DNA from: Candidatus Zixiibacteriota bacterium
Lineage (GTDB): Bacteria > Zixibacteria > MSB-5A5 > SM1-73
Assembly (NCBI GenBank): GCA_023129805.1
Contig: JAGMBK010000030.1
Span: 1 to 15,524, forward strand
Length of the DNA stretch: 15,524 nucleotides
Direction of reading: 5' to 3'
This document shows, in pieces, positions 3,728 to 15,269 of this stretch; positions within the stretch are counted from its first letter, which is position 1; each line of letters starts with the position of its first letter. The notes under the pieces were generated by a model. That model had not been told where the DNA came from, made no database searches, and was given only the letters and a program-made list of their open reading frames with translations. A program made the position numbers and the translations under genes.

Positions 3728-4876
3728 TTATTTTTCCTCCCTTATCTTTCGGAATATCTGATCCGGGGTGATCAATTCTGAGTCATAGCGATTGAGACCG
3801 CGCACCCGGGTCTTCCCTCGGTTAACTCTCATCACCTCCCTGATCAGCTGTCCCTGATTAAGCTCGGCTACGATGACTAAATCCAACTGTTCTAAAATGT
3901 GCTCCATATAAATGTCCGGGAAGGGCCACACAGTTAAAGGCTGTATCAGTCCCGCTTTGATTCGTCTCTCTCGCGCCATGTGGATAGCCTGTCTGGCGGC
4001 ACGCGCTACAATTCCATAGGCGAAGACCGCTATATGGGCGTCCTCCATGAATTCTTCTCTCACCTCAACAATGTCATTTATGTTATGGGTGATTTTATTT
4101 TTCAATTTGTCCAGCTTCTCCCTGATAACCACCGGTCTGGCGGTAGGGAACCCGTCCGGGTTGTGAGTCAGTCCGGTGATGTTGTATCTGTATCCCTCTC
4201 CGAAGCTTGCCATGGGGGAGACAAAATGAGGATTTACCTCAAAATGCTGGTACCATCCCGGGTGAACCGTGGGCTTCATCCGGTTTATTATCCTTATCTT
4301 TTCCGGATCGGGCAGTTCGACCTTTTCCCGCATATGCCCCACCACCTCGTCCATCAGAACCACCACCGGGGTACGATATTTTTCTGAGAGGTTAAAGGCC
4401 CGGATGGTAAAATGGAAGCATTCTGCCACCGAGGAGGGAGCTAAGGCTATTGCATGATAATCTCCGTGAGTTCCCCAGCGGGCCTGCATGGTATCGGCCT
4501 GGGCGACCTTGGTGGGCAGACCGGTGGATGGTCCACCTCTCTGTACGTCTACGATTACACACGGCACCTCCGCCATGTAGGCGTAGCCAATATGTTCCTG
4601 CATCAGTGAGAATCCGGGTCCACTGGTGGCGGTCATGGATTTCACCCCGGTCACCGATGCTCCAATCACCGCTGCTAAGCTGGCAATTTCATCTTCCATC
4701 TGAATGAATTTCCCCCCCACCCTGGGCAACTCCCGAGCTAAGACCTCGGCTATCTCTGTAGAGGGAGTGATGGGATACCCGCCAAAGAAACGACAACCAG
4801 CCGCTATAGCACCTTCCGCGCAAGCACGGTTTCCCAGGATCAATCTCTCTTTCTTTGGGGTGGTTCCCTTGTTCAT
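3728..4876 (-). CDS. korA: 2-oxoglutarate:ferredoxin oxidoreductase, alpha subunit
   Basis: This subunit supplies the pyrimidine-binding side of the TPP site and the 2-oxoacid-binding residues. Key motifs are GGYPITPSTEIAE (32-44), EDEIASLAAVIGAS (61-74), SMTATSGPGFSLM (80-92) and VQRGGPSTGLPTK (111-123). The second half (about 250-382) fits the C-terminal transketolase-like domain, with VAELNQGQL and VNRGKT. The length of 382 residues matches KorA-type alpha subunits that lack a fused gamma domain. Its ATG overlaps the korD TGA by 4 nt (ATGA), a coupling typical of an operon. The YPITPSTE form is widespread among 2-oxoglutarate and 2-oxoisovalerate enzymes, so the substrate assignment is likely but not proven. 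Confidence 0.94.
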   Translation of the reverse strand: MNKGTTPKKERLILGNRACAEGAIAAGCRFFGGYPITPSTEIAEVLARELPRVGGKFIQMEDEIASLAAVIGASVTGVKSMTATSGPGFSLMQEHIGYAYMAEVPCVIVDVQRGGPSTGLPTKVAQADTMQARWGTHGDYHAIALAPSSVAECFHFTIRAFNLSEKYRTPVVVLMDEVVGHMREKVELPDPEKIRIINRMKPTVHPGWYQHFEVNPHFVSPMASFGEGYRYNITGLTHNPDGFPTARPVVIREKLDKLKNKITHNINDIVEVREEFMEDAHIAVFAYGIVARAARQAIHMARERRIKAGLIQPLTVWPFPDIYMEHILEQLDLVIVAELNQGQLIREVMRVNRGKTRVRGLNRYDSELITPDQIFRKIREEK

Positions 4877-5154
4877 TCAGGCTCCTTCAAATTGTCTTTC
4901 TTTGACTCCTTTTTTTCCCGCGGTCTAACCGCGATGGCAAAATCCGGACACCTGAGCTCACACATGCCACACTGGGTACATTTTTCCGGATAGGTTAATA
5001 TGGGGAAGCCATCTTTGTCCGAGGTCAAAGCCCCGGTGGGACAGAAAGCCACACAGATGCCGCATCTTTTACACCAGGCTTCGAATACGTGAACTTTCTC
5101 TTCTTCTGTTTCCTGCTTGGTGTTCACTTGAGTTTTAGCCGCTTGATCTGCCAA
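4873..5154 (-). CDS. korD: 2-oxoglutarate:ferredoxin oxidoreductase, delta (2x[4Fe-4S]) subunit
   Basis: A small ferredoxin-like subunit that passes electrons from the TPP site towards soluble ferredoxin. Its 93 residues hold two full CxxCxxCxxxCP cluster motifs: CKRCGICVAFCPTGAL and CTQCGMCELRCPDFAI. The N-terminus is charged (ETEEEKVHVFEAWC) and the C-terminus is Lys/Glu rich. The start is TTG at 5154; no ATG or GTG lies between the first residues and the clusters, and a weak purine-rich GAAGGGAT stands just upstream. It is the first gene of the minus-strand kor operon and lies back to back with hdrC, 117 nt away. Confidence 0.93.
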   Translation of the reverse strand: MADQAAKTQVNTKQETEEEKVHVFEAWCKRCGICVAFCPTGALTSDKDGFPILTYPEKCTQCGMCELRCPDFAIAVRPREKKESKKDNLKEPE

Positions 5155-5183
5155 TTTAATCCCTTCACCCTGTCAAATTAGGG

Positions 5184-5231
5184 CTTGACTTTACGAGTAT
5201 ATATAATAAGTTTAATACGAGGAAAGTCAAG
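5184..5231. promoter_or_regulatory. Divergent kor/hdr control region with inverted TTGACT-containing arms
   Basis: CTTGACTTT (5184-5192) and its exact reverse complement AAAGTCAAG (5223-5231) flank an AT-rich core that includes TATATATAATAAG. Read on the minus strand, TTGACT (5230-5225) is followed after 17-19 nt by ATTATA or TATATA (within 5207-5200), a plausible sigma-70-type promoter for korD. Read on the plus strand the matching TTGACT has TATAAT only 11 nt away, too close, so a plus promoter here is not supported in that form. The symmetry also suits an operator controlling both operons. Confidence 0.5.
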
Positions 5232-5271
5232 TTTTTTGGCAAAACTTTGTGATTTTTTTCACTAACAACAG

Positions 5272-5739
5272 ATGCCCACAAAATCAATAAATTACAAGTT
5301 CAAGCAGAAACTTAACTCCACTTTGGGGGGGGAGGCGCATAACTTTTGTTACCAATGCGGTGCCTGCGTGGGAGATTGCCCGGCCGCCATGTATTCTTCA
5401 GATTTTAACCCTCGAGAGATACTTTTGCAGGCGCTCTTAGGGGATGAAGAGGCTCTGACCGGAGAGAATTCCCCCATCTGGAATTGCACCAATTGTTATA
5501 CCTGCTACGAGAGATGCCCCCAGGCGGTAAGACCGGTGGAGGTGATCATCGCCTTGAAGAACATCTGCTACCAGAAGATGACTGCTGCACCTGAGGTTAA
5601 TCAGATTGTGAAAAGCGTTAAGACCACCGGTCGGACAGTGAAGATCACTTCCCTGTCTGACAGAAGGAGAAAAGAGCTGGGCTTGCCGGAGATAAAAGCC
5701 GTCCCCATGGATGAGTTGAAGGAACTTTTTGAACCGTAG
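5272..5739 (+). CDS. hdrC: Heterodisulfide reductase subunit C-like iron-sulfur protein
   Basis: A 155-residue electron carrier with two [4Fe-4S] clusters that normally docks with HdrB. The ligands are visible as CYQCGACVGDCP (Cys26, 29, 32, 36) and CTNCYTCYERCP (Cys72, 75, 78, 82); the spacing between them and the following PVEVIIALKN segment are HdrC hallmarks. There is no membrane segment, so it is a soluble form. The start ATG has no clear Shine-Dalgarno sequence. Its natural partner hdrB lies 951 nt downstream, beyond an inserted MNT-HEPN pair. No hdrA is nearby, so the electron donor may be ferredoxin (for example from KorDABC) or an SdhA/FrdA-type flavoprotein elsewhere; HdrBC-like pairs serve several such complexes. 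Confidence 0.9.
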   Translation: MPTKSINYKFKQKLNSTLGGEAHNFCYQCGACVGDCPAAMYSSDFNPREILLQALLGDEEALTGENSPIWNCTNCYTCYERCPQAVRPVEVIIALKNICYQKMTAAPEVNQIVKSVKTTGRTVKITSLSDRRRKELGLPEIKAVPMDELKELFEP

Positions 5740-5789
5740 AGAGATGTTACCCCCTCCATGTCCCACGTTTAGTTTTAGGATATATGTGC

Positions 5790-6134
5790 ATGAAAAAGAG
5801 TTTAGGATATTTGAGCAAAAAGGAGAGGAAGGTTATTGAATCCTTTGTAAAGGACCTAAGAACCCAATTAGGTGATCAAATAGTTTCTATTACCCTTTTT
5901 GGGTCCAAGATAAGAGGTGATTCTGGCAAAGAATCAGATATAGATGTATTGGTCTTAATAAAAAAGAAGAACCAAAGGATTCGCAAAAAGGTGGCAGAAA
6001 TATTGACGGATTATTTGATAGAATACGATTTGCCCCTTTCTCCTGTATTATATGACCTCTATGAATATGAAAAGAACAAAGAAATCGGCTCTTTTTTCTT
6101 TAAAGAGGTAGAAAAAGAGGGAATTCCTTTGTGA
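5790..6134 (+). CDS. Minimal nucleotidyltransferase (MNT) antitoxin-like protein
   Basis: A small polymerase-beta-fold nucleotidyltransferase. The motif GSKIRGDSGKESDID fits GS-x10-D-x-D, with two carboxylates for metal binding. Proteins of this family (MntA type) act as antitoxins by AMPylating a partner HEPN toxin. I place the start at the ATG at 5790 because AGGA (5777-5780) is 9 nt upstream; another in-frame ATG at 5784 would leave only 3 nt. The 3' end overlaps the next gene by 4 nt, so the pair is coupled. The DNA is AT-rich compared with hdrC and hdrB: positions 5941-6000 hold 20 G or C in 60, against 33 in 60 at 7081-7140 in hdrB. This suggests separate acquisition. No DNA-binding domain is present, unlike the second MNT in the window. 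Confidence 0.88.
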   Translation: MKKSLGYLSKKERKVIESFVKDLRTQLGDQIVSITLFGSKIRGDSGKESDIDVLVLIKKKNQRIRKKVAEILTDYLIEYDLPLSPVLYDLYEYEKNKEIGSFFFKEVEKEGIPL

Positions 6135-6538
6135 AAGAAGGAACCAAAGAAGACCTAGCCAGGCATCGGATACAGAAAGCAAAAGAGCGGTTAAAGATTT
6201 CCAAAGAACTGTTGGATTTAGGTCATTCTGCAGATTCGTTAAGCAAAAGCTATTATGCAATGTTTTCAGCAGCCAAAGCCCTTTTAGCTCTAAAGGAATT
6301 GGATAGTAGTAAACATTCAGGGGTTATTTCTCTTTTTAATAGATATATTGTTAAGGAGGGACTTTTTTCAAAGGAATCCAGCCGATTGCTTTCTGAAGCT
6401 AAGCTCGAAAGGGAAGAAGCAGACTATGAAGATTTCGTTACTGTTACTCAAGCGGATGCCAAACTTCAACTTAAAAATGCGAAAAAGTTTGTCAAAGAAG
6501 CCCAGAAAGTATTGAGTAAAATTATTAAAGAAAGATAA
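6131..6538 (+). CDS. HEPN-domain protein, toxin-like partner of the MNT
   Basis: A 135-residue all-helical HEPN protein of the UPF0332 style, with the signature SYYAMFSAAKALLALK (40-55), SKHSGVISLFNRYIVK (60-75) and REEADYEDF (94-102). HEPN toxins are commonly RNases that use an R-x4-6-H motif; here the equivalent stretch is Arg94-Glu-Glu-Ala-Asp-Tyr99, with Tyr where His would stand. The partner MNT could modify a Tyr in this region. The start is GTG at 6131 inside the MNT stop codon (GTGA), coupling the pair. It sits between hdrC and hdrB with AT-rich codon use, indicating insertion. Whether it is an active RNase, a scaffold or a target of AMPylation cannot be told from sequence. Confidence 0.87.
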   Translation: MKEGTKEDLARHRIQKAKERLKISKELLDLGHSADSLSKSYYAMFSAAKALLALKELDSSKHSGVISLFNRYIVKEGLFSKESSRLLSEAKLEREEADYEDFVTVTQADAKLQLKNAKKFVKEAQKVLSKIIKER

Positions 6539-10727: not shown

Positions 10728-10756
10728 TTGACTTGCCCATTGTTGCTCTATATAAT
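10728..10756 (+). promoter_or_regulatory. Near-consensus sigma-70 promoter of the second MNT-HEPN pair
   Basis: TTGACT (10728-10733) and TATAAT (10751-10756) are separated by exactly 17 nt. This is the best promoter in the window. Transcription would start near 10763, inside the operator palindromes, and 57 nt before the MNT start codon. Confidence 0.8.
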
Positions 10757-10788
10757 GAGCAGGTGCTCCAAAAAGTGAGCAATTGCTC
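10744..10788. promoter_or_regulatory. Tandem palindromic operator with 20-bp period
   Basis: GAGCA-GG-TGCTC (10757-10768) and GAGCA-AT-TGCTC (10777-10788) are two palindromes whose equivalent bases lie exactly 20 bp apart. A further TGCTC half-site at 10744-10748 keeps the same phase (10744, 10764, 10784). The array covers the -10 box, the predicted start point and the early leader. Two helical turns put the sites on one face of the DNA. The obvious candidate repressor is the winged-helix MNT protein encoded next. Confidence 0.75.
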
Positions 10789-10819: not shown

Positions 10820-11371
10820 ATGTTTAAAGACTTCTTTATTAAAACAACTCATCAAAAGATGTTGTCTTTCTTGGCGACTCATGCCAGCAAAATCTTCCAT
10901 GAAAGAGAATTGGTCAGAAAAACTGGTATTGGCGCTGGATCAGCTAACCGGGTTCTCAACGAGCTTTTTATGGCTGGCGTTCTCAAAAGAGAGCGCCGGG
11001 GTAAGATGTATTTCTATTCTTTAGACGAAAGCGATCCCATTGTTCGACAATTTAAAGTCCTCAATATCATTTTAAGTCTTGATCCTTTAGTAAAAAAGTT
11101 GAAGCCTTGGACTAACACCTTAATCTTATATGGCAGTTCTTCACAAGGAACCGACGATTACCAAAGCGACGTTGATCTTTTAGTAGTAACTTCAGTTGAA
11201 GAAAAAGTCCGCAAGATAGTGGATAAATACAAATTCCCAAGAGAAATAAGAATGGTTCTTAAGAGTCTGTCTGAATGGCTGGAATTAGAGTCCCAGGACC
11301 AAGTTTTTTATAATGAAGTCTCAAGAGGGATAATCCTATGGGAAAAACCTATCAATGAATCCCGACTTTAA
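10820..11371 (+). CDS. Winged-helix/MNT nucleotidyltransferase fusion, antitoxin-like autoregulator
   Basis: A 183-residue two-domain protein. Residues about 10-70 form a winged helix-turn-helix (HERELVRKTGIGAGSANRVL, then the wing KRERRGKMYFYSLD). Residues about 95-180 are a minimal nucleotidyltransferase with GSSSQGTDDYQSDVD, fitting GS-x10-D-x-D (Gly105, Ser106, Asp117, Asp119). In MNT-HEPN systems the MNT protein neutralises the HEPN toxin, in known cases by AMPylation. The DNA-binding domain suggests it also represses its own operon through the palindromes at 10744-10788. The start ATG lacks a strong Shine-Dalgarno sequence. Its 3' end overlaps the HEPN gene by 17 nt. AT-rich composition relative to the metabolic genes suggests mobility. 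Confidence 0.88.
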   Translation: MFKDFFIKTTHQKMLSFLATHASKIFHERELVRKTGIGAGSANRVLNELFMAGVLKRERRGKMYFYSLDESDPIVRQFKVLNIILSLDPLVKKLKPWTNTLILYGSSSQGTDDYQSDVDLLVVTSVEEKVRKIVDKYKFPREIRMVLKSLSEWLELESQDQVFYNEVSRGIILWEKPINESRL

Positions 11372-11813
11372 AAAGTGTCTTGAGAACAAAAAGATTGTTT
11401 CGAGCAGTAACGTCAAGAGGCTGATCTCTAAGGAATTGGAAGCGGCTAATGAAGACTTCAGAGAAGCTTGTGATAGTTTAAAGAAAGGAGCCCACAAATG
11501 GAGCACTATCCAGAGCTATTATTCCATGTTTCATTCAGCCAGAGCTTTGCTTTACAATAAAGGCTATAAAGAGAGAAGTCATTTCTGTTTAGCGATTGCT
11601 TTAGATGCGCTTTATGTTGAGTCCAAGCTTCTGTCGGCAAAATATTCAAATGCTTTCAGAAAAGCTATGTCTCTGCGGGAAGACGCTGATTATTCCTTAT
11701 CGTTTTCCAAAGAGGGAGCAAAAGCTATTACCCAGAGCGCTGAAGAATTCCTTAAAGAGGCAGAAAAGCTTTTGAAACAATATATTAAAGAGAATCAAAA
11801 TAGGTTACTCTGA
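11355..11813 (+). CDS. HEPN-domain protein, toxin-like partner of the winged-helix MNT
   Basis: A 152-residue helical protein of the UPF0332-type HEPN group. It shows QSYYSMFHSARALLYNKGY (53-71), RSHFCLAIALDALYV (74-88) and LREDADYSLSF (107-117). The expected R-x4-6-H RNase motif is absent; the matching position is Arg108-Glu-Asp-Ala-Asp-Tyr113, the same R-x4-Y form as in the first HEPN protein of this window. It overlaps the MNT gene by 17 nt and shares its promoter and operator. The presumed role is the toxin of a type VII-like toxin-antitoxin pair, or an effector in stress or phage response; neither is shown by the sequence itself. Confidence 0.87.
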   Translation: MNPDFKKCLENKKIVSSSNVKRLISKELEAANEDFREACDSLKKGAHKWSTIQSYYSMFHSARALLYNKGYKERSHFCLAIALDALYVESKLLSAKYSNAFRKAMSLREDADYSLSFSKEGAKAITQSAEEFLKEAEKLLKQYIKENQNRLL

Positions 11814-12128: not shown

Positions 12129-15100
12129 ATGACTAAGTCGAAGATCCCACTAAAAGCGGGGAAGCTATTGATTTTAGTGATTTTGCTTTTGGTTAGTATA
12201 CCTGTCTTTGCCCAGGTTGACACCGCCTGGGTGAGAAGATACAACGGACCGGGAAACTCAGGCGATTACGCTCGTGCCATAGCGGTAGATGGTTCTGGCA
12301 ATGTCTATGTGACCGGAGGGAGTAGGGGCAGTGGGACATACGACGCGGACTACGCCACCATAAAGTATTATCCCGATGGAGATACAGCTTGGGTAAGAGG
12401 ATACAACGGACCCGGAAACGGCGATGATCAGGCTTATGCCATAGCAGCAGATGGTTCTGGCAATGTTTATGTGACCGGACATAGTGACGGCAGTGGGACA
12501 TACGATGACTATGCCACCATAAAGTATTATCCCAACGGAGATACTGCCTGGGTGAGAAGATACAACGGACCGGGAAACTACTATGATAGGGCTGAAGCCA
12601 TAGCTGTAGATGGTTCTGGCAATGTCTATGTGACCGGATGTAGTAACGGCAGTGGGACAGCCGATGACTATGCCACCATAAAGTATTATCCCGATGGAGA
12701 TACTGCCTGGGTGAGAAGATACAACGGACCGGGAAACTACTATGATGATGATGCTTATGCCATAGCTGTAGATGGTTCTGGCAATGTCTATGTGACCGGA
12801 TGTAGTAACGGCAGTGGGACAGCCTATGCCACTGCCACTATAAAGTATCATCCCAATGGAGATACAGCCTGGGTGAGAAGATACAACGAACCGGGAAACG
12901 GCGATGCTGGGGCTTATGCCATAGCGGTGGATGGTTCTGGCAATGTCTATGTGACCGGATGGAGTAGGGACAGTGGGACATACGACGCGGACTACGCCAC
13001 CATAAAGTATTATCCCGATGGAGATACAGCCTGGGTGAGAAGATACAACGGACCGGGAAACGGCACGGATTGGGTTCGTGCCATAGCGGTGGATGGTTCG
13101 GGCAATGTCTACGTGACCGGAATAAGTGTGGGCAGTGGGACATACGAGGACTACGCCACTGTGAAGTATGACTCAAATGGAAACCAGCTCTGGGTGAGTC
13201 GATACAACGGACCGGGAAACTCAGAAGATTATGCTGGTGCGATAGCCATAGATGTTTCCGGCAACGTCTATGTGACGGGATATAGCTGGGAGAGTGGGAC
13301 AGACTACGACTACGCCACCATAAAGTATGTGCAAACAGGTCCTTCATTCGACGTCGCTGTTGAGATTAAAGAAGATAAGCTAGCGATGTGGAATGCCATA
13401 CCCACAACACACTGGTTTGTGCTTCCTTTATCCGTGATGAACAACGGTCTAGTAACGCTTGGCGATCTTGAAGTAACCCTAAACATTGCGGGAAACATCT
13501 TTACTCATATGATTCCATCTCTGAATCCCGGGCAAGAAAAAGTAATACGAGATAGCGTAGATATTCCTCGTATTTGGGAAAACAAGAATATTGTTGGTTC
13601 GGTTACCTCAGTTGAAGGATATCCTGTTGACATTCACGACTCCAAGCAGGTTTCCGTTTATTACTGCACAGGTGGAGACGATGCTCATCCATTCACGATC
13701 TTCCGTGACTTTTACAACTTCCAGAATCCAGATTTTGATTGGGGTGAATTCCGAGAAGCTTTTGAGTTTCTCTTTGAGTTCTTGAACTTCGACTTTATTA
13801 TTAACTGCTTGTTGCCAGAACTCGTCTTCCTCTGGACCGGACATTGTGTTGGCATGAGTGCGTCAGCTGACGCATACTTCTTGGATCCCTCCCAAAAACC
13901 TCCGCCTTTCAAAGAGACGCGTGAGATGAATCTATCAGATGAGGGGGTTTTCCGCAATATCATTTGGTATCACTTTTCTCAATTTACAACGGATCAACTT
14001 TACGAATCTTTTGATGGAATGGAAGCAAATGATGCGGAGGAGTCCGCTAAGACGCTTATTGTAGACAATTTTCCTCCGCTCGTCTACCTGAGGAATGGCG
14101 CTAGCTCACATGCAGTTTTAGGGTATAAGCTACTGCGTGATAACACCATCGGAAAGAGCATACTCTACCTTTACGATAATGAATATCAAGATGAAGTTCT
14201 CAAAGCTGATTTCAATTTAAACAACAACACCTTCAATTATCAAGGTTGGGGCGGGATCAGAATCTTCCAACCTATCATTGATCCTTTGAACGGAGACGAA
14301 TGGCTCAGCGGATTGTCGGATTGGTTGAAGCATCAGATACATAACCTGTGGGATGCGGGACTTGCTCGATTTGGTCTCGCATGTCCTGTCAAGATGTTGT
14401 TAACTGACGAATATGGACGCAGGGTCGGATTTGTAGATGGGATTTCCTTCGTGAATGAAATACCCGGGGCCGAGGTTATCTTTCTCGATGGGGGGAATGG
14501 AGACACGTTGGCTTTCTATGACGCACCTAAAGATTTGAATTACACGGTAAATTATTTCGGCGACGACATAGGTCTTATGAATGCAGAAGTATTGAAACCA
14601 AAATCTGAAGAAACCGCAATCACACTCTCTTACGTCGGCGTGGAGGTCAGTCCAGACATGGTTGCGACTTTGTTGGTCGACAGCACAGAAGACTACAACC
14701 TTAATATCGATGAAGATGGAGATGGCACAATAGACACGGTCATAAATCCCACAGTTGATAACTTACCACCAACTCCTTTCGATCTCCTTTCTCCGCTCGA
14801 CCAAGAAACTGTTTTGCTTTATCCCTTCGGTTTTGATTGGTCATCCTCGTCGGATCTCAATGGAGATACTATTTTCTATCGGGTTTACATAGACACTGAC
14901 TCAAGCTTTTCCTCCGCAGATTCCTCTGAGTCAGTTACAGACATCAGTTGGGTCTGCACTATTCCATTACAAGATTCAACTACTTATTTCTGGAAAGTTA
15001 AAGCCTTTGATAACAAGGGTGGCGGGACTTTTAGCGAACAGATGTGGAGTTTCTTTTTGGTATTACCTTTTATTAGTGGCGACGCCAACGGAGACGGAGT

Positions 15101-15269
15101 CATAGACTTGGGGGATGTGGTTTACTTAATAAACTATCTATATAGAAACGGCACTGCTCCTGATCCCTTACCTGCTGGAGATTGCAATTGCGATGGAATC
15201 GTTGACCTTGGAGATGTGGTCTATCTGATCAACTATCTATACAGGGGTGGACCGCCACCATGTAGATAA
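12129..15269 (+). CDS. Secreted SBBP seven-repeat propeller protein with internal papain-like domain and dockerin-like C-terminus
   Basis: A Sec signal peptide (about 1-28, LLVSIPVFA) leads into seven SBBP repeats of 53-54 residues, each starting near AWVRRYNGPGN (Trp34, 88, 141, 194, 248, 302, 355) with AIAVDGSGNVYVTG and DYATIKY; seven units suit a closed seven-blade beta-propeller. Residues about 407-510 resemble a CARDB-type beta-sandwich. Residues about 520-740 carry GHCVGMSASA (Cys573), SSHAVLGYKLL (His661) and YLYDNEY (Asp683/Asn684), the order and context of a papain-like cysteine peptidase. An Fn3-like domain (about 877-980) is followed by two dockerin/EF-hand-like repeats from 984, beginning GDANGDGVIDLGDVV, the second with Cys1019 and Cys1021 and a final Cys1045. 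It is probably extracellular or surface-bound. The peptidase reading is inference; substrate unknown. Confidence 0.85.
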   Translation: MTKSKIPLKAGKLLILVILLLVSIPVFAQVDTAWVRRYNGPGNSGDYARAIAVDGSGNVYVTGGSRGSGTYDADYATIKYYPDGDTAWVRGYNGPGNGDDQAYAIAADGSGNVYVTGHSDGSGTYDDYATIKYYPNGDTAWVRRYNGPGNYYDRAEAIAVDGSGNVYVTGCSNGSGTADDYATIKYYPDGDTAWVRRYNGPGNYYDDDAYAIAVDGSGNVYVTGCSNGSGTAYATATIKYHPNGDTAWVRRYNEPGNGDAGAYAIAVDGSGNVYVTGWSRDSGTYDADYATIKYYPDGDTAWVRRYNGPGNGTDWVRAIAVDGSGNVYVTGISVGSGTYEDYATVKYDSNGNQLWVSRYNGPGNSEDYAGAIAIDVSGNVYVTGYSWESGTDYDYATIKYVQTGPSFDVAVEIKEDKLAMWNAIPTTHWFVLPLSVMNNGLVTLGDLEVTLNIAGNIFTHMIPSLNPGQEKVIRDSVDIPRIWENKNIVGSVTSVEGYPVDIHDSKQVSVYYCTGGDDAHPFTIFRDFYNFQNPDFDWGEFREAFEFLFEFLNFDFIINCLLPELVFLWTGHCVGMSASADAYFLDPSQKPPPFKETREMNLSDEGVFRNIIWYHFSQFTTDQLYESFDGMEANDAEESAKTLIVDNFPPLVYLRNGASSHAVLGYKLLRDNTIGKSILYLYDNEYQDEVLKADFNLNNNTFNYQGWGGIRIFQPIIDPLNGDEWLSGLSDWLKHQIHNLWDAGLARFGLACPVKMLLTDEYGRRVGFVDGISFVNEIPGAEVIFLDGGNGDTLAFYDAPKDLNYTVNYFGDDIGLMNAEVLKPKSEETAITLSYVGVEVSPDMVATLLVDSTEDYNLNIDEDGDGTIDTVINPTVDNLPPTPFDLLSPLDQETVLLYPFGFDWSSSSDLNGDTIFYRVYIDTDSSFSSADSSESVTDISWVCTIPLQDSTTYFWKVKAFDNKGGGTFSEQMWSFFLVLPFISGDANGDGVIDLGDVVYLINYLYRNGTAPDPLPAGDCNCDGIVDLGDVVYLINYLYRGGPPPCR
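12225..13330 (+). repeat. Seven near-identical 159/162-bp tandem coding repeats
   Basis: The TGG of each unit falls at 12228, 12390, 12549, 12708, 12870, 13032 and 13191, giving periods of 162, 159, 159, 162, 162 and 159 nt. Long stretches are nearly identical at DNA level between units 1-6, while unit 7 is more diverged. Variation is concentrated in the two loop segments after GPGN and after VTG. Confidence 0.9.

Follow-up and report, generated by a model that had tools for sequence, protein, structure and literature searches.

The genes considered here raise the question of whether the antitoxin of a HEPN-MNT pair can be, at the same time, the repressor of its own operon. They lie in a 15,524-nucleotide stretch of a Candidatus Zixiibacteriota contig (JAGMBK010000030.1), the whole of which we call the window. 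A sigma-70-type promoter, a two-palindrome operator, a gene joining a winged helix (wHTH) to an MNT domain and an overlapping HEPN gene can all be read from its sequence, and our essential contention, based on sequence comparison, is that this is very probably a HEPN-MNT pair whose antitoxin also represses its own operon via the paired palindrome in the promoter. The features concerned, in window coordinates, are as follows.

10728..10733, + strand: -35 box TTGACT, with a 17-bp spacer to the -10 box
10745..10760, no strand: operator palindrome 1, GCTC-N8-GAGC, wrapping the -10 box
10751..10756, + strand: -10 box TATAAT, inside operator palindrome 1
10765..10780, no strand: operator palindrome 2, GCTC-N8-GAGC, 20 bp after palindrome 1
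10785..10788, no strand: fifth half-site GCTC, not common to the relatives read
10820..11371, + strand: predicted wHTH-MNT antitoxin gene, 183 aa, PDC-M05A type (domain and profile matches, model)
10847..11023, + strand: winged-helix domain, about residues 10-68 (structure model, wHTH matches)
11111..11347, + strand: MNT domain, residues 98-176, with GS-x10-DVD intact (sequence and domain match)
11355..11813, + strand: predicted HEPN toxin gene, 152 aa (PF05168, 8e-13), with a 17-nt overlap with the antitoxin gene

Promoter and operator letters in the window

The original prediction had read this region as a promoter carrying two GAGCA-N2-TGCTC palindromes and an in-phase TGCTC, all with a 20-bp period, and every one of these letters is present, at a level above chance. 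The promoter, TTGACT-N17-TATAAT, spans 10728-10756; GAGCAGGTGCTC occupies 10757-10768, GAGCAATTGCTC occupies 10777-10788 and the additional TGCTC lies at 10744-10748. The period is correct, since TGCTC begins at 10744, 10764 and 10784. Taken as GCTC and GAGC, the half-sites begin at 10745, 10757, 10765, 10777 and 10785, that is, at 0, 12, 20, 32 and 40 bp, and the composite of the first four scores 16/16 in the window; among 400 first-order Markov shuffles the highest score was 12. Exact matches to GAGCANNTGCTC occur only twice in the window, both at this promoter; when up to two mismatches are allowed there are seven matches against 5.8 expected, and hence single degraded matches carry no meaning.

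Conservation among relatives

A protein search yielded 84 homologues, many of them on contigs of a few kb. The loci compared here come from a profile scan of genome contigs, which gave 23, and a scan of viral contigs, which gave one more (a single-protein search of the viral contigs found no relative). These 24 loci, from Chloroflexi/Dehalococcoidia (16), Omnitrophota (5), Aminicenantes (1), another bacterium (1) and a viral contig (1), encode proteins 37-48% identical to the window protein in the best segment; the comparison leaves out its closest relatives, P0001-P0008 (67-92% identical), which are absent from the contig-scan loci. The viral-collection contig, L024, carries the antitoxin gene and operator with an adjoining HEPN-like frame and differs little in sequence from L013, a locus of a Chloroflexi genome, so that these two loci are not independent.

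The arrangement GCTC-N8-GAGC-N4-GCTC-N8-GAGC, or a recognisable variant of it, is found in all 24 relatives, either overlapping the -10 box or immediately past it, and shortly before the start codon. None of 400 shuffles matched the observed score in 19 of 25 sequences, the window included, and between one and three did so in the other six (L003, L011, L012, L016, L023 and L024). Half-sites with at least three of four letters occur in 24 relatives at position 0, 24 at position 12, 18 at position 20 and 23 at position 32, against one at position 40 and none at position -8. The single relative at position 40 has three of four letters, and the fifth half-site is exact in 0/24. Given that four half-sites are kept and the fifth is not, the conserved element is GCTC-N8-GAGC twice, 20 bp apart, and GAGCA-N2-TGCTC must be rejected in that role. 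Read in the latter phase, the window offers one widely kept site and a second (10777-10788) that exists only because of the window's own fifth half-site. The expectation that GAGCA-N2-TGCTC pairs spaced by 20 bp would recur upstream of homologues thus fails in its literal form, while the operator as such does recur throughout; the letters were real, but the unit they belong to is the tandem GCTC-N8-GAGC.

Five or six of six letters match TTGACA at the -35 place in 14/24 relatives, and five or six of six match TATAAT at the -10 place in 24/24. In the 19 relatives outside the Omnitrophota, TATAAT, or a sequence one letter removed, lies inside palindrome 1, 6 bp past its start, as it does in the window; one of them, L003, has an additional base between the palindromes. 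In the five Omnitrophota (L018-L022) the operator is found 12 bp further downstream, directly after TATATT or TATCAT, with TTGACA 17 bp ahead of the -10 box; the third half-site, the left half of palindrome 2, is degenerate, and the spacing 0/12/32 is retained. This displacement without loss of spacing indicates that the operator shifts as a whole with respect to the promoter.

These positions bear on two other explanations of the repeats. Inverted repeats can form hairpins, and might act in RNA as leader hairpins or an attenuator rather than as a DNA operator; however, a palindrome that wraps the -10 box, as in the window and the 19 relatives outside the Omnitrophota, should lie outside the transcript, and both the tandem register of 20-22 bp and the uniqueness of the site within genomes (see below) fit DNA binding, so we consider a role in RNA highly improbable. 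Nor is it credible, in our estimation, that the palindromes are accidents or functionless relics of shared descent. Single matches resembling GAGCANNTGCTC are indeed common by chance, but the operator as a whole is kept amid an unconserved surround in proteins of 37-48% identity, and distant clades have double palindromes composed of other letters. The mean share of the commonest letter is 0.84 over the 36-bp operator and 0.38 at -100 to -60, in a set of 18 of the 25 sequences that omits the Omnitrophota, L003 and L013. A conserved operator overlapping the promoter of its own genes, as sequence comparison finds here, is a feature expected of an autoregulated toxin-antitoxin operon.

Uniqueness of the site within genomes

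Palindromic operators alone do not identify the protein that binds them, and the site might be that of an unlinked regulator (a stress repressor of the host, say) acting on this operon and possibly on further ones. Such a regulator would be expected to have more sites. We searched genomes with a strict pattern, RCTC-N8-GAGY-N4-RCTC-N8-GAGY, using the reversed pattern as a control. The strict pattern occurs once in 17/23 genomes, always at this operon and identical to the operators read, and the reversed control gave no match; the six genomes without it, those of L003 and the five Omnitrophota, have deviating operators. One site per genome, wherever the strict pattern is found, implies a site reserved for its own operon. 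Among 301 genomes sampled from one phylum there were 11 strict matches, five at a family gene and six elsewhere, and since the reversed control gave eight, the remainder is at chance level. Seven genomes of this sample have a wHTH-MNT gene at E < 1e-50, two of them without the strict pattern: G003, which has an extra base, and G025, which has other letters (L048).

One locus recalls the unlinked regulator: in L113 a four-half-site RCTC/GAGY palindrome (1501-1536) lies about 50 bp from a frame that is TetR-like by eye, and no wHTH-MNT gene was found in this 3-kb locus. Against it, besides the genome counts, stand the differing half-sites of modules within one genome, their divergence along with the protein, and the association of the double palindrome with the fused wHTH, which are described below; we judge an unlinked regulator improbable, and a repressor encoded by the operon itself the better account. 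The notion that the operator marks a regulon or serves as a phage decoy was also considered and is rejected, given the six matches outside the family in 301 genomes and eight for the reversed control. In viral contigs the exact-letter form of the operator occurs in 11 stretches, with no family protein in the DNA examined around them; eight are inside open frames of at least 150 codons and the other three resemble tRNA genes by eye.

The wHTH-MNT protein

The original prediction of a gene that fuses a winged helix to an MNT domain is borne out, domain matches and structure model being in agreement. The 183-residue protein matches NTP_transf_2 above the cut-off and a TrmB-type wHTH below it; its model (mean pLDDT 92.4) places helices at residues 10-20, 28-35 and 39-51 and strands at 55-60 and 63-68, followed by the MNT domain, and residues 39-51 are the presumed recognition helix. 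It is from the sub-threshold domain match, matches of sequence and fold, and this model that the antitoxin is seen to carry a DNA-binding domain. The nucleotidyltransferase motif GS-x10-DxD, characteristic of the MNT in type VII HEPN-MNT pairs, is present, and G105, S106, D117 and D119 are invariant across 32 aligned sequences; against the NCBI MntA equivalog model the protein scores 26.3 bits, below the cut-off of 60.

Structures of the Legionella HEPN-MNT pair (8xeh, 8xeo) and of MntA (5yep, 7bxo, 7ae9) align with the MNT half by sequence or fold, and these matched chains, of about 100-150 residues, cover that half only. Among 28 sequence matches, and among the 50 fold matches listed out of 1615, structures cover one half or the other and none spans wHTH and MNT together. 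TrmBL2 fold matches align end to end, but with an rmsd of 19-30 Å and a TM of about 0.3.

Double palindromes in the wider family

Two phylum-wide searches provided loci with wHTH-MNT genes at E 1e-59 to 1e-12. Many of these distant genes are preceded by tandem double palindromes that repeat every 20-22 bp but are built from other half-sites; by eye, these include TACCC/GGGTA, GTAAC/GTTAC, TTACGC/GCGTAA, GCAGT/ACTGC, TTCTC/GAGAA and GGTC/GACC. We scored them as four agreeing 6-mers with a period of 19-22 bp (maximum 24, 28 spacing pairs tried), a blunt statistic for which the shuffle mean is already about 18 of 24. A score of at least 21 was reached by 35/58 wHTH-MNT genes, a set that includes the window and its close relatives, and by 20/30 in the distant subset, against 2/201 other genes from the same loci, a control cleaned of the family's own second copies but in which many genes may sit inside operons and hence be promoterless. 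Among the 58 genes, 27 beat all 100 of their own shuffles and 44 had at most five shuffles that reached them. The 23 that scored below 21 include cases missed by the statistic, for four of the five genes with the Omnitrophota variant score 19.

The same statistic, unchanged, was applied to a later set of genes, which numbered 40 once four duplicates and the too-short locus L144 had been dropped; the phylum sample of G018 (Omnitrophota) contributed 28, and second copies in genomes already under comparison the other 12. At least 21 was reached by 28/40 (12 falling below) and by 3/38 control stretches taken 330-450 bp upstream, and at least 22 by 21/40 and 0/38 respectively. For relatives on plasmids, read in 5 of 10 plasmid records, one of five reached 21 and three of five reached 20, and repeats are visible by eye in most. 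In the G018 phylum sample itself, 103/193 genomes have at least one wHTH-MNT profile match at E 1e-15 or better, with up to six in one genome.

The double palindrome accompanies the fused wHTH. MNT genes without a wHTH reached 21 in 0/17 cases, a small control with start codons picked by rule, which leaves out four further MNT genes with long N-terminal frames. The window has a second MNT/HEPN pair, at 5784-6538 (116 and 135 aa), whose MNT belongs to this control, matches PADLOC PDC-S09, has neither wHTH nor double palindrome, and scores 17.

Co-divergence of operator and protein

To describe how operators vary among these genes, we used 31 proteins less than 70% identical to one another, drawn from 50 genes that either had an operator score of at least 20 or were among five named close relatives; as genes were picked for operator or close kinship, the test asks how operators vary and not whether they are present. 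Operator similarity is correlated with wHTH identity (Mantel r 0.75, 0/999 permutations; 0.45 after MNT identity) and with MNT identity (r 0.69; 0.25 after wHTH identity). The DNA 60 bp upstream gives r 0.08 with wHTH (50/999 as high) and 0.07 with MNT (71/999). For the 406 pairs with a wHTH identity below 50%, the correlation with MNT (r 0.40) is slightly higher than that with wHTH (0.35). Operator and protein therefore diverge together, and for distant pairs the wHTH is not singled out; that the wHTH is the part concerned is suggested by the overall partial correlation, by domain knowledge and by the MNT-only control.

Where a genome carries both a window-type copy and a second wHTH-MNT copy, the second has a different operator in four of the five genomes read (G005, G006, G009 and G080), and in the fifth, G002, the second copy has no clear operator (score 19). 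Since operator letters and protein diverge together in relatives, modules of one genome can be kept apart. L009 has two adjoining and convergent wHTH-MNT/HEPN-like modules, at 4001-4982 (+) and 5074-6079 (-), with operators of the GCTC and TACCC types respectively, and offers a natural test of such insulation.

The presumed toxin gene

The order of the genes in the window, MNT first and HEPN next to it and overlapping, is that of type VII HEPN-MNT pairs. By eye, the HEPN motif Rx4-6H is incomplete in the window protein, which reads R108-EDA-D112-Y113 with no H at 4-6 residues past R108. This does not exclude it from type VII, because D takes the place of H in several PF05168 (HEPN-T) proteins, according to a table in the available part of a review of the HEPN superfamily (PMC3710099). 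The window HEPN matches Pfam but neither a PDC-M05B model nor, at 1e-3, any other PADLOC model.

For the 58 loci, 51 downstream open frames were recovered, of which 45 were scanned after inspection by eye had removed six that looked spurious or were self (L049, L063, L076, L081, L086 and L087). A Pfam HEPN family is matched by 28/45 at 0.01, and a single PADLOC PDC-M05B model, PDLC04374, by 36/45 at 0.001. Seven loci gave no downstream frame, among them L004, which is cut by the contig end, and L011 and L020, which hold HEPN pieces. In the remaining four, L001, L014, L074 and L083, the four HEPN queries used found no match. On the other side of the HEPN gene in the window, at 12129-15269, lies a 1046-residue protein that, by eye, has repeated units of DTAWVRRYNGPGN type and a dockerin-like C-terminus.

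In several relatives the antitoxin and operator are kept while the HEPN gene is damaged, by an internal stop in L002, by an internal deletion in L011, or is partial, as in L020, and in L001 and L014 they are kept where no HEPN gene was found. Loss of the toxin before the antitoxin is the order of decay expected of a toxin-antitoxin pair, and these loci show that the repressor gene can be maintained in the absence of its toxin. These loci also touch on a refinement of our model, in which the repressing species is a wHTH-MNT/HEPN complex and the ratio of the two proteins decides repression. Conditional cooperativity, as this is termed, comes from type II systems. Two tandem sites and a 17-nt gene overlap would suit it, whereas the persistence of operator and antitoxin at these five loci speaks against it, though all that it shows is that the gene can be retained without a toxin; we regard the refinement as possible but rather unlikely.

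Proposed mechanism and known systems

In proposing how the operon is regulated, we return to the antitoxin itself as the repressor. The comparison suggests that the wHTH binds the operator and, from what is known of such families, an antitoxin dimer would bind each palindrome through its N-terminal wHTH; two dimers, about two helical turns apart, would then occupy the -10 region and keep RNA polymerase out. Cooperative binding on one face of the DNA, as originally proposed, is plausible from the spacing. By analogy with the HEPN-MNT pairs that have been studied, the MNT domain would nucleotidylate the HEPN RNase, with the conserved Tyr113 as presumed target, and so silence it, and a drop in the level of antitoxin would derepress the operon. 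It is our guess that HEPN binding, or the modification state, may tune repression. The claim that the antitoxin is its own repressor is thus very probably right, with an operator in every one of the relatives read, a unique site in most of their genomes and none, by score, at the 17 MNT-only genes, even though it was first attached to the wrong palindromic unit.

Promoter binding by an MNT protein has a reported precedent, and the accompanying statement that most described MNT antitoxins are catalytic only was too strong. In the Shewanella oneidensis type VII system (SO_3165/SO_3166; MntA/HepT), in which the MNT gene also precedes an overlapping HEPN gene, the available part of the report describes SO_3165, an MNT protein with no predicted DNA-binding domain, as binding its own promoter, where two palindromes unlike each other lie near -10 and -35; deletion of the pair raised promoter activity 1.6-fold (PMC4621449). 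The window differs in having a fused wHTH and two like palindromes in tandem, where the Shewanella MNT has no predicted DNA-binding domain and the reported effect was small. The nearest functional parallel is with the type IV systems AbiEi/AbiEii and Rv2827c, in which, in the part of the source available, the nucleotidyltransferase is the toxin and a separate DNA-binding protein the antitoxin (PMC7319586); in the window one protein holds both nucleotidyltransferase and DNA-binding domain, and it is the HEPN protein that is presumed to be the toxin.

PADLOC's PDC-M05A models match residues 3-170 of the window antitoxin (E 6.6e-24), and also 10/10 relatives scanned, an assignment that rests on E-value and not on PADLOC's own system cut-offs. 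PDC-M05, a PADLOC phage-defence candidate composed of M05A and M05B, is described in a 2026 survey as a nucleotidyltransferase with a HEPN protein, enriched in Archaea and with an unconfirmed antiviral role, and the available text mentions neither winged helix nor operator (PMC12988326). Elsewhere, the accessible portion of a 2009 survey considered that a DNA-binding component might act in trans (PMC2701414), and that of the 2013 HEPN review mentions wHTH fusions to other HEPN proteins and none to MNT (PMC3710099). No description of a wHTH-MNT operator was found in the literature searched, the scope of which excluded bioRxiv and most subscription papers. A self-regulated toxin-antitoxin operon is of a known kind; such regulation was not found described in that literature for this HEPN-MNT branch.

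Implications

A bolder and doubtful extension is that wHTH-MNT proteins may be operator-bound nucleotidyltransferases, that occupancy of the promoter may report the state of the HEPN protein (bound, modified or free), and that operators and recognition helices may diversify together across phyla. If this were true, the operon would read the neutralisation of its toxin directly, and a single toxin-antitoxin family would contain a large number of repressor-operator pairs, each insulated from the rest. In the wHTH-MNT branch the antitoxin carries its own fused DNA-binding part, whose predicted site is readable from sequence, so that the double palindrome provides a regulatory signature by which wHTH-MNT modules may be spotted and points to a putative binding site in many of them; the naturally occurring pairs of wHTH and operator lend themselves to the study of how recognition changes. 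Self-repression of this kind would place the candidate PDC-M05 among the self-regulated toxin-antitoxin systems.
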